This document shows positions 35,098 to 42,320 of a stretch of 64,000 bases of DNA, one piece after another. Source of the stretch: Nitrospirota bacterium (GTDB lineage: Bacteria; Nitrospirota; Nitrospiria; Nitrospirales; Nitrospiraceae). The translations under genes and the position numbers were made by a program. Under the pieces are notes generated by a model, which worked only from the letters and a program-made list of their open reading frames with translations, made no database searches and had not been told where the DNA came from. Positions within the stretch are counted from its first letter, which is position 1. Every line of letters begins with the position of its first letter. The DNA is taken from contig JBFMAX010000003.1 in assembly GCA_040755395.1 (NCBI GenBank), forward strand, positions 62,001-126,000. The letters run 5' to 3'.

Positions 35098-36125
35098 TCA
35101 AAACTCGCGGATGATCCGGAACCCGACTTCCGGCAGCGTGAAGTCATGCGTCAAACGCGCGCCGACTCCGGCCTGGATCATCCAGTACTTGCCGACCTCG
35201 TAATGCACCTGCGGCATCACGAGCAAGGCCGCGTGGCCGCCCACGACCTGCCCGAAGTTCGTCTCGACCCCGGCGACGAGACGGTCGGTCATGTCCGCGA
35301 AGAGCGTCATGTTGCTGAGCAGCTCGGTGGTCGTTCCACCGGCTGCGCGGCCGAGTTCGAAGCGGGGGCCGACCATGCCGAACAGACTCCTCATGTCATC
35401 CAAACGGAAACCGGCCAGGTATAGCCAGGTGGTCGTCCAGATGCGAGGATCGAGATCGTACTGCAGGATGGTTTGGGCGCCGTGGATGTACCGGTTCCGG
35501 AACGCCGTGCCGAAGGTGACTTGCCCGGCGGCCTTGTAAGCTTCGACCCGGGCGTTTTCCATCGGCAGTTCCAGTTCGAGCGCGATCCCGTCCGTCAGCA
35601 CGAACTCGATCTCCGGCGCCCATTCGAAGCCTTGCGTATCGGGGCTCCGGCGCACCAGGCCCAGCGGATCGGGCACGTCGTCCACCCTGCGCGTTTTGCG
35701 CGAGAGGGGGACCAGACCCAGCGTATTGAATTCCGCCTCGCCCGCGTGGCGCCGAGCGGCCGGACCAGATCGAACACCATCGGCTCCGGAATACGGGGGC
35801 CTTTTTCTTCGCCCGAGACCCGTTCCATGGTTTCCGGCTCGCGCTCTTCTTCGAGCGACAGAGTCCATCGTCGCGGCAGGTCGCCGAACCACGTGTCCGC
35901 CGGCGGCAAGCTGGCTGCGAATCGGCCGTCCGCCGAAAGCGTGGTCCAGGAAATCGACGGGAGCAACGGCGGGCGTTCGGGCCCAACAACTTCGGCCCGA
36001 AGTTGCCCGACTTGAGCCGCCAAGTGGCAGAGCAAGACCACGGCCCCGATGATCCTCGGCGTTTGTCGAAGCGATCCGTCGGTGGCGGAGACCGCCGAAC
36101 CGCCGAGCGATAGCACGACCGGCAT
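35098..36125 (-). pseudogene. Exported barrel-like protein of unknown family, frameshifted
   Basis: The frame starting at 36125 encodes a hydrophobic leader (IIGAVVLLCHLAAQVGQLRA), then PSISWTTLSADGRFAASLPP, and EEREPETMERVSGEEKGPRI with PMVFDLVRPLGATR. At about 35745 it loses sense, and another frame continues GEAEFNTLGLVPLSRKTRRV, then PEIEFVLTDGIALELELPME and barrel-like strands to VGFRIIREF at 35098. One missing base within a CGGGCGAGG run restores one product of about 340 residues. Alternating hydrophobic strands with charged turns and a terminal aromatic residue suggest an outer-membrane barrel. No family name recognised. Confidence 0.6.
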
Positions 36126-37836: not shown

Positions 37837-37989
37837 TCAAGCCGGGCTCCAATACTGGATCAGGTAATAGACGCTCCAGATGAGGAGCCCCAGGACCACC
37901 AACTTGAGCCATATGGGAACGGCTCCGTCCCGCTCGCGGATGCCCGCATGCCGGTAGTGGTAGACCCGCTCCGCCTCGCGCTCGCTCAT
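37837..37989 (-). CDS. Small single-TM protein downstream of the fused cbb3 oxidase
   Basis: A 50-residue ORF (MSERENAERV-like start, read as MSEREAERVYHYRHAGIRER) with a strong GGAGGTGAACC site. It has a charged N-terminus and one TM helix (PIWLKLVVLGLLIWSVYYLI) followed by QYWSPA. Its start lies four bases after the stop of the oxidase gene, so the two are cotranscribed. Small single-TM subunits such as CcoQ or CcoS accompany cbb3 oxidases, and a comparable assembly or stability role is plausible. The sequence does not identify which. Confidence 0.75.
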   Translation of the reverse strand: MSEREAERVYHYRHAGIRERDGAVPIWLKLVVLGLLIWSVYYLIQYWSPA

Positions 37990-37992
37990 GGT

Positions 37993-40884
37993 TCACCTCC
38001 CGCTGATCGGGGTGTCTGAAGCCTGAGCCGTCAGGCTTCCAGGCTCCTGTCGTTGCCCGTGCTGCACCACCTCTTTCTCCAACTCGCCCCGCCGTGCGGC
38101 GGCGGAGAGTCCGGCCCAGATGCGGGTCCTGGCCTGCTCCTTGTCCGCGTCCTTGAGTCCGGCCGCGACCAGTTCGGCTTCGTGCGCCGCGACGCGCAGC
38201 GATTGCGCATAATGAACGATGTCCCAAATTTCTTCAGGTTTCAATTGCTCGCTGAACACCGGCATGGGCGTGCCGCCCACGCCGGTCGCGACAGTCTTGA
38301 AGAGATGTTCGCTGTCGTGGCCCAGTTTCACGCCGCCTGCGGCGCCGGCCGGCAAGGTGAAATTCGCCGGCTTCAGCGGCTGTCCCCAGATGTCCTTGAG
38401 CACCGGCACCATGGGACCGTCTCCCTGCCCGCCCGAACCGTGGCAGATCATGCAGTTGGCCAGGAACAGCCCTTTTCCTTTTTCCAACGACGCCGTCGTG
38501 ATCGGCGGTTCACTCGGAATCGCGATCGGCCGTTCGACAGGCTCCTTCGACCAACGATCCGAGAACGTCTTGATGTACTGGACCACGGCGCGGCGTTCGT
38601 GATCGGAAATCTCCTGCCAGGACGGCATCGCGGTGCCCCACAGCCCGTGGGTGATCGTGCTGAAGAGATCCACATCGGTCGGGAGCGAATCCTTGCCCGG
38701 GGTCGAGCGGAACTTGAACACGCCCTTCGTGAAATCGCGCGGACGGGGATCCATGAACCGCGCTGCCGGCCCGTTGCCGTCTCCTTGCACCCCGTGGCAG
38801 CCGACGCAGCGGCGGACATAGACCTCACGGCCGAACTTGAGCAGATCCTCGTGCGCCTGCGGGCTGGCATCGAGGGCCAGGCCCGCGACCTTCTGCGTCG
38901 AGGCGAAGCCTTCGCGCCAGTCGCCGATGCCCGTGCCCAGCTTCTGCAGATACGCCACCAGCGCCTGACCCTCCTCGTTGAGCCGCGGCGGGCCTCCGTC
39001 CTTGGCACGCTCGAACAGCCACGGGAACGCGGGCATGATCGAGTCCGGCACCACCTCCTGCGGCGACCAGTGGTGGGCGATATGCCAATCGTCGCCGTAC
39101 TTGAGACCCACACGGGTCAGATCGGGTCCGATCCGCCTGGTGCTGAAGAGATGCGGGCGGTCATGGGCGTATTCCCCGGCCTGCGAGACCGGTCCCCACC
39201 GGAACGACTCGCCGGTGACCGGGCGGACATATTGGGAGTGGCAATACCAGCAGCCCTCGCGGATATACACTTGTCGGCCTTGCAGTTCCTGCGGCGTGTA
39301 GTCGGCCACCCGGATCGGCAGCTTGGTGACGACGTCCTCGACGAGCGGCGTGCGTGTTTCGGCCATGAGCCAGGGCGTCACGCCCTGGATGCCGACCGCG
39401 AGGAAGAAGAAGCCGAACCCGGCGGCGAGAAACACCGTCGAGGGGCTTTCGATCCAACTCCCTTTGGCGACGACCTGGACCGGTGTTTCGTCCGGTCCCG
39501 CGGCGTCGGAAACCTCGCGCTCCAGCGGCGTCCCTTCCTGAGCGGTCTTGTAGAAGTTGATGAACATCAAGAGCAGGGCCACGTCCATCGCGACGCCGCC
39601 CAGCGTCCGGGCCACCCACCAGGGCTTCATCTCCTTGACCGTGTCCACGAAGTTGGCGCCGAACTCCAACATCGAACCCTGGACGAAGCCCTGCGCGGTC
39701 AGCCCCACGGCCATGACGGTAAAGCCGGCGATCGTGAGCCAGAGGTGCCAGCTCGCCAGCCGATCGCTCCACAACTTCCGGCCCGTGACCCGCGGCCACA
39801 CGTAGTAGGCCGAGCCCACCGCCCAGACGACGAAGGTGCCGAAGACGGTCAGGTGCGAATGGGCGATGACGAAGTCGTTGAAATGGGTCAATTCCTGCAG
39901 CCGGCGCAGCGCCTCGACCGACCCTTGGAAGCACCCGAGCAGGTAATAGACCGCGCCCAGCATCAGAAACTTGGCGGCGTAATTGTCGCTCCCTCCGCCC
40001 CCGGCCACCGCGCCCCAGCGGCCCAGCATCGTCCCGAAGAAGTTCACGATCACCGTCCACACCGGAATGATCAGCAGCATGCTGGTCACGATCGAGATCG
40101 TCTGGGTCCAATGCGGAATGGGACTGTAGAGATAGTGGTGCGTGCCCACGAACGGATAGAAGAACGCGAGCGACCAGAACCCCAAGAGCGAGAGTTTGTG
40201 GCTGTAGAGCGCGTTCTTGGCGCTCAGCGGCAGGAAGTAATAGATGAGGGCGAGCCCGGCCGGGGTGATCCAGAGCCCGACGATATAATGGATATACAGC
40301 CCGTGCATGGCGGCGCTGTTGACGCCGGCGATGTCCTCCGTATAAGGGAGCAGCACGTTGCCGAGGATCAGATTCATGACCGTCCAGATCAGCGCGGCGG
40401 TGGTGTACCACATGGCTACATAGAAGCGTGTTTCCACCCGGTGGAAGACCGTGGCCAGCACCTGGAACGTGATCACACCCAGCACCGCGAAGCGCAGGAT
40501 ATTCAACGGCCACTGGAACTCGCCGGCCTCCAGGCCCATGTTGTAGCCCATCAGCAGGGACAGTGAGCCGAAGATCAGAAACGCGTTCCAGGCGTGCAGG
40601 AGCCACCAGCCCCATGCCTCCTTGTACATCCGCACGCCGCAGAGGCGCGGGACGACGTAATAGAGCAGGCCCAAAAACACCGTGGAAAATGAGCCGAAGA
40701 TCACGCCGTTGACGTGGACGGGCCGCAGACGGCCGAAGGTCAGCCACGGAAGGCCGTCCAGAAATTCCGGATTGTGGAATTTGATCGAGACCAGCACCCC
40801 GACGATCGGGAACACCGTCAGCCACACGAGCGACCACCAGATCCACGCCTTCACCAACGGCCGATTGACCAACTCGTCCTGCAT
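37993..40884 (-). CDS. Fused cbb3-type cytochrome c oxidase CcoN-CcoO with dihaem CcoP-like tail
   Basis: The Met at 40884 (MQDELVNRPLVKAWIWWSLV) follows GAGGAG. In the 963-residue product, residues 1-450 form a CcoN-like core of about 12 TM helices with His57 (RPVHVNG), His199 (YIHYIVG), His249-His250 (GTHHY, CuB ligands) and HSHLTVFGT (342-344, haem b and b3 ligands). A TM segment then leads to a CcoO-like monohaem domain (CWYCH, 545-549). Two further c-type domains follow (CVGCH, 693-697; CMICH, 811-815), as in CcoP. It would take electrons from cytochrome c and reduce O2 at the inner membrane. Having N, O and the dihaem part in one chain is unusual; separate subunits are the norm. Confidence 0.88.
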   Translation of the reverse strand: MQDELVNRPLVKAWIWWSLVWLTVFPIVGVLVSIKFHNPEFLDGLPWLTFGRLRPVHVNGVIFGSFSTVFLGLLYYVVPRLCGVRMYKEAWGWWLLHAWNAFLIFGSLSLLMGYNMGLEAGEFQWPLNILRFAVLGVITFQVLATVFHRVETRFYVAMWYTTAALIWTVMNLILGNVLLPYTEDIAGVNSAAMHGLYIHYIVGLWITPAGLALIYYFLPLSAKNALYSHKLSLLGFWSLAFFYPFVGTHHYLYSPIPHWTQTISIVTSMLLIIPVWTVIVNFFGTMLGRWGAVAGGGGSDNYAAKFLMLGAVYYLLGCFQGSVEALRRLQELTHFNDFVIAHSHLTVFGTFVVWAVGSAYYVWPRVTGRKLWSDRLASWHLWLTIAGFTVMAVGLTAQGFVQGSMLEFGANFVDTVKEMKPWWVARTLGGVAMDVALLLMFINFYKTAQEGTPLEREVSDAAGPDETPVQVVAKGSWIESPSTVFLAAGFGFFFLAVGIQGVTPWLMAETRTPLVEDVVTKLPIRVADYTPQELQGRQVYIREGCWYCHSQYVRPVTGESFRWGPVSQAGEYAHDRPHLFSTRRIGPDLTRVGLKYGDDWHIAHHWSPQEVVPDSIMPAFPWLFERAKDGGPPRLNEEGQALVAYLQKLGTGIGDWREGFASTQKVAGLALDASPQAHEDLLKFGREVYVRRCVGCHGVQGDGNGPAARFMDPRPRDFTKGVFKFRSTPGKDSLPTDVDLFSTITHGLWGTAMPSWQEISDHERRAVVQYIKTFSDRWSKEPVERPIAIPSEPPITTASLEKGKGLFLANCMICHGSGGQGDGPMVPVLKDIWGQPLKPANFTLPAGAAGGVKLGHDSEHLFKTVATGVGGTPMPVFSEQLKPEEIWDIVHYAQSLRVAAHEAELVAAGLKDADKEQARTRIWAGLSAAARRGELEKEVVQHGQRQEPGSLTAQASDTPISGR

Positions 40885-40934: not shown

Positions 40935-42320
40935 TCACCACTCCTTACCAAGGAGGGGTTGGAGAGGTACGGCCGACTCCCGCTCCGGCGGACCCGCAGT
41001 CCGCAGGATCAACCAGCCTGCGGCGCCCGCCAGGACCGACCCGGTCAGGATGCCCACTTTGGCGGGAGCGTCCAGCGGCGTCTTGCCGAACGCGAGCCCG
41101 TCGATGAACAGCGACATCGTGAAACCGATGCCGGCCAGACATCCCACGCCGATCACGTGACGCCATGTGATCTCCTCGGGCAGGGCGGCGACCCCAATGC
41201 GCACCGCCGACCAAGAAGCCAGCGTGACCCCGACCGGCTTGCCGATCAGCAGGCCGGCGATCACGCCGAGCGCCACCGGAGGCAACAGGGTCGCCGCCGG
41301 ATCGCCCTCGATCGTGACGCCGGCGTTGGCCAGGGCGAAGACGGGCAGGACGACGGCGATGATCCACGGGTGCAGGGCGTGCTCCAGACGCTGCAGCGGG
41401 GTGCCGACTTCGTGGGCCGCCTGCTGCAGGCGTGTCGCCACGGCCTGCCGGTCCGGGTTCGCCAGCGGGGGACGGCCCGGGTCCGTCGCCTTCTGGAACT
41501 TCTCGAGCAGCGCGCGCACCCGCACGACGAACTCCTCACCGGACAGCTTCGTCCTCGCCGGGATCGTAAGCGCCGCGAGCACGCCGGCGATTGTCGGATG
41601 GATGCCGGACAGGAAGAACGCTAGCCACAACCCGCCGATGCCGAGAATTCCGTAGACCAGCGGATGGCGGATGCCCAGGAGGTTCGCGCCGATGAGACCG
41701 ACCAGAAACGCCGCGCCCACCGCCAGGCTCGCCCAGGAGATCGTGGACGTGTAAAACAAGGCGATGATCAGCACCGCCGCCAGGTCGTCCCGGATCGCGA
41801 GCGCGACGAGAAAGACCTTGAGCGCAACCGGGACGCGCGCCCCGAGCAGCGACAGGATTCCCAGCGAGAAGGCGATGTCCGTGGCCATCGGGATGCCCCA
41901 GCCCCTCGCGCCCTCGGTCCCGGCGTTGAAGCCGAAGTAGATCAGGGCCGGGAGAGTCGACCCCCCCAGCGCGGCGGCGAGGGGTAGGGCGGCCTGGCGC
42001 AGAGAGGAGAGCTCCCCGACCAGGACCTCGCGCTTGATTTCCAGCCCGATGACGAAGAAGAACATCGCCATGAGCCCGTCGTTGATCCACAGGATCAGCG
42101 GCTCCGTGAGGGCGAAGTCGCCGATTCCGAGCGTGACCGGCAGCCGACGAAACGCCGGGTAGGCATCCGCCCAGGGCGAGTTCGCCCATGCCAGCGCAAT
42201 GACCGTCGAGATCAGCAGCAGGATGCCGGCCGCCGACTCCGCGTGGATGAAGCTCTGGAACGGCTCGATGACCGGCCCGATCAGCGGCTCTCTGGTCCCG
42301 TCTTCGTTCCGTTGAAACAT
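40935..42320 (-). CDS. nhaA: Na+/H+ antiporter NhaA
   Basis: 461 residues, about 12 TM helices. Family signatures are IHAESAAGILLLISTVIALA, WINDGLMAMFFFVIGLEIKR, GWGIPMATDIAFSLGILSLL, and the ion-binding Asp pair in LAIRDDLAAVLIIALFYTS (normally AIxDDLGA). C-terminal parts are GIGFTMSLFIDGLAFG and GWLILRTAG. It is electrogenic, exporting Na+ in exchange for two H+. The last residues (LQPLLGKEW) are translated from a REP-like repeat, so the natural C-terminus has been altered by repeat DNA. An approximately 25-residue internal hydrophilic insertion (ATDPGRPPLANPDRQAVATR) resembles that in other long NhaA proteins. Confidence 0.92.
   Translation of the reverse strand: MFQRNEDGTREPLIGPVIEPFQSFIHAESAAGILLLISTVIALAWANSPWADAYPAFRRLPVTLGIGDFALTEPLILWINDGLMAMFFFVIGLEIKREVLVGELSSLRQAALPLAAALGGSTLPALIYFGFNAGTEGARGWGIPMATDIAFSLGILSLLGARVPVALKVFLVALAIRDDLAAVLIIALFYTSTISWASLAVGAAFLVGLIGANLLGIRHPLVYGILGIGGLWLAFFLSGIHPTIAGVLAALTIPARTKLSGEEFVVRVRALLEKFQKATDPGRPPLANPDRQAVATRLQQAAHEVGTPLQRLEHALHPWIIAVVLPVFALANAGVTIEGDPAATLLPPVALGVIAGLLIGKPVGVTLASWSAVRIGVAALPEEITWRHVIGVGCLAGIGFTMSLFIDGLAFGKTPLDAPAKVGILTGSVLAGAAGWLILRTAGPPERESAVPLQPLLGKEW

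Follow-up and report, generated by a model that had tools for sequence, protein, structure and literature searches.

The window analyzed here, a 64,000-nt stretch of contig JBFMAX010000003.1 from a member of the Nitrospirota, carries on its minus strand a gene of 963 codons (37993..40884; ATG at 40884, TGA at 37995-37993) that joins CcoN, CcoO and a dihaem cytochrome in one frame. Pfam scanning of the translated frame returned COX1 over residues 11-431 (E = 7.5e-70), FixO over residues 492-629 (E = 9.9e-46, 156 bits) and, in addition, two stretches of cytochrome c. Together with alignments, the COX1 match delimits a CcoN-type part (39592..40854, minus strand), and the FixO match, together with hydropathy (a transmembrane helix at about residues 484-502) and a CWYCH haem c motif at residue 545, delimits a CcoO-type part (38998..39411, minus strand). 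The other two CXXCH motifs of the chain, CVGCH at residue 693 and CMICH at residue 811, fall within residues 680-896 (38197..38847, minus strand), a dihaem cytochrome c part that was placed by a match to 6h5l_B over this range and by a tree. These domain and motif scans bear out the initial annotation, which had read a 963-residue frame with the CcoN histidine set, a CcoO-type CWYCH and two more CXXCH sites, and had described an N-O-dihaem fusion with one small partner. That partner is a gene on the same strand (37837..37989) for a 50-aa, single-transmembrane protein, which matches FixP_N and, by Pfam, profile comparison and gene order, appears to correspond to a free-standing N-terminal anchor of CcoP. 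It does lie directly behind the fusion, at a spacing of 3 nt between TGA and ATG rather than the four bases given at first. A Shine-Dalgarno-like GGAGGTGA in front of it (37993..38000, minus strand), whose role we infer from sequence, overlaps the fusion's stop codon 3 nt before the ATG, and this arrangement suggests that translation of the two genes may be coupled. No Rfam match was obtained over the window, and around the oxidase gene neither tandem repeats nor a sigma-70-type promoter or terminator beyond chance expectation were found. Just upstream, positions 40935-42320 of the minus strand encode an NhaA-type Na+/H+ antiporter (Pfam E = 3.6e-145). It was considered as a functional partner of the oxidase and rejected, since its place directly upstream is not shared among relatives; the only matches to the window ORFs of this stretch are ORFs that lie some 2 kb behind the fusion in two genomes (G064 and G070). 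Within the 4.1-Mb genome the fused frame is the only clear haem-copper oxidase, a second COX1 match of 31 bits falling under the cut-off.

Judged by NCBIfam scores, the fusion is a divergent member of the cbb3 type that falls outside the canonical equivalogs, reaching 243.8 of 583 bits for ccoN and 135.3 of 200.65 bits for ccoO. The hallmarks of a C-family oxygen reductase were nonetheless found by alignment and motif: subunit I has the histidines that bind haem b, haem b3 and CuB (H57, H199, H249, H250, H342, and H344) as well as the TM7 tyrosine (Tyr243), and FixO with its CWYCH site provides the mono-haem CcoO subunit. The TM7 tyrosine, a marker of O2 reductases among haem-copper enzymes, is kept together with the haem and CuB histidines in 15 of 15 aligned fusion rows. 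The CuB region itself is odd, in that H194-G195 stand where canonical CcoN has Gln-Trp; HGL-Y/F-I-H was read in all 15 aligned fusions, vs. QWWYGH in five of six canonical CcoN rows. Since three unfused rhizobial relatives also have HGLY-I/L-H (an HGLY-x-H motif) at this site, the substitution marks a clade and not the fusion. A counterpart is on record for Nitrospina gracilis, where Trp203 is changed to Gly next to an extra His202, a combination found otherwise only in Sinorhizobium according to the accessible part of that report (Lucker et al. 2013; PMC3578206). Given this unusual CuB region, the protein could be a nitric oxide reductase, or some other C-family-derived haem-copper enzyme that does not reduce O2. 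We consider this improbable, since the TM7 tyrosine persists throughout the aligned fusions and low O2 raises the abundance of the N. marina cbb3 oxidase 3.6-fold, as given in the available part of PMC8115632. Very probably, the gene pair encodes a divergent cbb3-type (C-family) O2 reductase made of one polypeptide and one small separate helix, and high-affinity O2 reduction is its likely predicted function.

Previous studies have described fused cbb3 oxidases. In N. gracilis, a single gene encodes all three subunits (954 aa; one plus two haem c sites; PMC3578206), a description that is repeated in PMC10839748 alongside unfused forms in class UBA7883, and Ca. Nitrospira alkalitolerans has fused genes similar to those of Nitrospina (PMC7784846), each as stated in the portions of these papers that were available. 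Measured against that published description, the window's oxidase is of the Nitrospina type, with N, O and P in one gene, the same set of haem c sites (one plus two) and Gly/His at CuB. The initial annotation had called the fusion unusual, which is correct against canonical cbb3 oxidases (ccoNOQP; PDB 3mk7), where the same domain set, catalytic ligands and three c haems are distributed over separate genes. Since the fusion has been published for N. gracilis and Ca. N. alkalitolerans, the main point of that annotation was already known, and it runs into the very refutation it had named, namely that relatives carry the same, already described fusion. What is new relative to the literature found, as far as its accessible text goes, is the FixP_N identity of the small gene and the kinship of the dihaem part; the accessible descriptions of the two published oxidases mention no separate FixP_N gene, unlike the window, and regard the dihaem portion as subunit III. 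No paper describing the small gene was found in the literature on fused cbb3 oxidases, CcoP and FixP_N, subscription papers and supplements lying outside this coverage.

A search for other full fusions, as had been proposed, located the oxidase in 16 of 235 genomes and 9 of 37 genera of the window's order (CcoN-CcoO query, E <= 1e-20), and four more carriers outside that order (G278, G355, G367, and G394) in a sample of 395 phylum genomes. Among the carriers that have names are MAGs under the labels Nitrospira sp. CR1.2 and Nitrospira defluvii NOB1. A family search for AMO, aimed at comammox, gave no match, and its control likewise gave none. The frame is complete in 12 of the 16 genomes of the order, the others being cut by a run of N (G053) or a contig end (G055) or broken (G111 and G141). 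The breaks in G141 (L064, 5000-9100) and G111 (L063), which affect two of the 20 carriers in all, reflect either decay or sequencing error. Broken frames in these two related genomes, together with the draft state of the window genome (74 contigs), could be taken to mean that assembly or sequencing has artificially joined separate genes. We give this virtually no credence, as unbroken frames occur in many assemblies, including the single-contig genomes G011, G063, and G217, and the N. gracilis fusion was published as one gene; for the group as a whole, an artefact is refuted. The nearest homologue, from another genome, is 85% identical over residues 3-957, and with an uninterrupted frame in several independent assemblies the fusion is thus neither chance nor an artefact of the window. 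One further candidate, a 1012-aa CcoN frame of G319, was rejected as a fusion, since the surplus is open frame ahead of CcoN and has no CXXCH. The distribution of the fusion is patchy, and families are intermixed in the oxidase tree, where G221 (family f3) joins the group of the window and two pairs from genus g18 stand apart; this points to horizontal transfer of the fusion.

The initial annotation had proposed the small gene as a new accessory subunit. It instead resembles the membrane segment of CcoP. The window protein scores 26.4 bits against Pfam FixP_N (PF14715), above the gathering score of 24.9, and 14 of 14 members scanned match FixP_N at E <= 0.01, some of them under the gathering score. 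One rhizobial member also lies under that score, and another has no Pfam match. In profile comparison, the small genes matched canonical CcoP N-termini (E = 1.3e-7, probability 94) and rhizobial small genes (E = 7e-15, probability 98), whereas CcoQ, used as a control, gave E = 0.005 at probability 7. It is conceivable that the likeness is mere convergence of short single-transmembrane proteins and that the gene encodes an unrelated accessory or assembly peptide. The protein is indeed short and hydrophobic, and a weak profile search of the PDB placed 3mk7_C (E = 0.14) behind PsbJ (E = 0.066), so that an unrelated peptide scores as well as CcoP. However, the resemblance extends to a pre-helix element, GI-x-E followed by a proline, that small genes and CcoP have in common, the CcoQ control fails, FixP_N is matched by 14 of 14 members, and rhizobial homologues occupy a like position. 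Convergence therefore seems unlikely to us, and the small gene appears, by its sequence relationships, to be the cut-off membrane anchor, or N-terminal segment, of CcoP.

Oxidase and anchor are found together. A strong match to the small-gene profile (E <= 1e-19; all at 3.5e-20 or better) was obtained in 16 of the 235 genomes of the order, three further genomes giving weak partial matches only. The oxidase also occurs in 16, and 15 genomes have both (Fisher value 1.4e-21, which ignores kinship and is given no weight here). G055 has an oxidase without the small gene, and its contig ends inside the oxidase; G220 has a small gene without the oxidase, at nt 360-536 of its contig. When the order and phylum samples are combined, 19 of 20 fusion genomes have the small gene downstream of the oxidase, G055 being the exception, and it is close in all of these but G141, where the distance is about 1.2 kb. 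That a lone helix was retained wherever the rest became fused argues that it has its own part to play in structure or assembly, and is relevant to the question of how much of CcoP a cbb3 oxidase requires.

The dihaem part, described initially as CcoP-like, probably works like CcoP but lies outside the canonical CcoP family by score and tree. With phmmer it matched 6h5l_B, which we take to be a structure from Kuenenia, at E = 5.6e-43 (150 bits), the best CcoP following at E = 4.3e-6. By profile it scored 428 (E = 1e-64) against a Nitrospirales dihaem set vs. 104 (E = 3.5e-15) against canonical CcoP, and NCBIfam ccoP (TIGR00782) gave 51.5 of the 179.95 bits that mark a canonical CcoP. Nor does one chain hold both a FixP_N helix and two haems, as in canonical CcoP, the helix being a separate gene. 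One Nitrospirales dihaem protein, scanned as an example, has an EB_dh domain, a feature of NxrC-like proteins. On this sequence evidence, canonical CcoP is a far more distant relative of the dihaem part than are the dihaem cytochromes of Nitrospirales (some of them NxrC-like) and of an anammox bacterium. Those cytochromes, 6h5l_B included, differ in having no oxidase attached, and the scanned NxrC-like protein carries an ethylbenzene-dehydrogenase-type domain. The accessible part of PMC3578206 mentions an alternative form of NxrC that has two haem c sites. In a tree of 39 rows, a branch of 2.23 with support of 99/99 sets off the five CcoP rows. All five are alphaproteobacterial and the branches are long; the dihaem part and canonical CcoP are still homologues, and the former may simply be a fast-diverged CcoP. 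An AlphaFold2 model of the dihaem part made with seven rows was poor (pLDDT 60).

Unfused relatives help to order the events. Systems on rhizobial plasmids (Sinorhizobium meliloti pSymA, Phyllobacterium, and Rhizobium gallicum) are 50-51% identical over about 90% of the fusion and share with it a joined CcoO-dihaem gene, the CuB motif and a separate FixP_N-like gene. They differ in that CcoN is a gene of its own, overlapping the CcoO-dihaem gene by 4 nt; a FixS-like small gene precedes the anchor (CcoN, CcoO-dihaem, FixS-like, FixP_N-like), and a TauE-like gene and a P-type ATPase come after it. The FixP_N-like gene was present behind the CcoO-dihaem gene in all four rhizobial loci inspected, of which L047 has broken annotated oxidase frames. 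CcoN and CcoO-dihaem are also separate genes in the distant Nitrospirota G424, G248, and G357, and at all three loci the anchor follows the latter at a distance of 0.2 to 2.7 kb; at a more distant Acetobacter locus with both genes, a 63-aa gene follows that does not look FixP_N-like. These gene orders suggest two successive fusions, the simplest order being CcoO with the dihaem cytochrome and then CcoN with the product, the anchor always remaining separate. The unfused loci may, conversely, be splits of an older fusion. In the tree, the six unfused rows, rhizobial and Nitrospirota, form one clade at 98/100, and a single clade for all 17 fused rows was not rejected (p-AU 0.53).

Topology would account for the lone anchor. 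CcoO ends in the periplasm and CcoP begins in the cytoplasm, so that only the periplasmic cytochrome part could directly follow CcoO, and the helix likely has to be a separate chain for this reason. In cbb3 oxidases, cytochrome c delivers electrons to the dihaem subunit, from which they move on to the CcoO haem, haem b, and b3-CuB. The fusion would take up electrons from cytochrome c through its dihaem part and pass them via the CcoO haem and haem b to b3-CuB, where O2 would be reduced, and the small protein, by homology and gene order, would pack against CcoN at the usual site of the CcoP helix. An AlphaFold2 model of a read-through chain of fusion and small gene with 11 rows was poor (pLDDT 42). 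Although the oxidase is of the cbb3 type, neither FixS/CcoS nor CcoG was matched in the window genome, and since neither was found, assembly of the fused oxidase may differ from the canonical. Canonical CcoP combines a helix with two haems of a different dihaem family. In the oxidase family described here, CcoP could have been dismantled, its dihaem part replaced by a cytochrome from another lineage, of the NxrC-like kind known from nitrite oxidizers, fused to CcoO and its helix surviving alone as a needed subunit. We offer this tentatively, doubting it slightly more than we believe it; if true, electrons derived from nitrite could enter the oxidase via a module shared with the nitrite-oxidizing complex. 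A one-chain oxidase with one small partner would in any case be convenient for expression and structural work, and would give a handle on how nitrite oxidizers respire at low oxygen.

A few other loci deserve mention. In G217, G063, G073, and G141 (L060, L061, L062, and L064), the gene behind the anchor encodes a mono-haem cytochrome c, a possible electron donor. Another fused haem-copper protein was seen in G447 (L103, 2276-4741, reverse complement), where an 822-aa frame has a COX1-like part, two CXXCH sites and IQGYYMHMGVG at the CuB site. On a plasmid of Vibrio sp. THAF190c (L071, from 5387), a 753-aa CcoP-like frame with several extra cytochrome c domains lies behind CcoN and CcoO. Within the window, a probable outer-membrane protein at 35098-36125 is split over two overlapping frames of 176 and 264 aa, from either a frameshift or an assembly error; in G011, G064, G157, and G158 the frame is undivided, at 328-417 aa.
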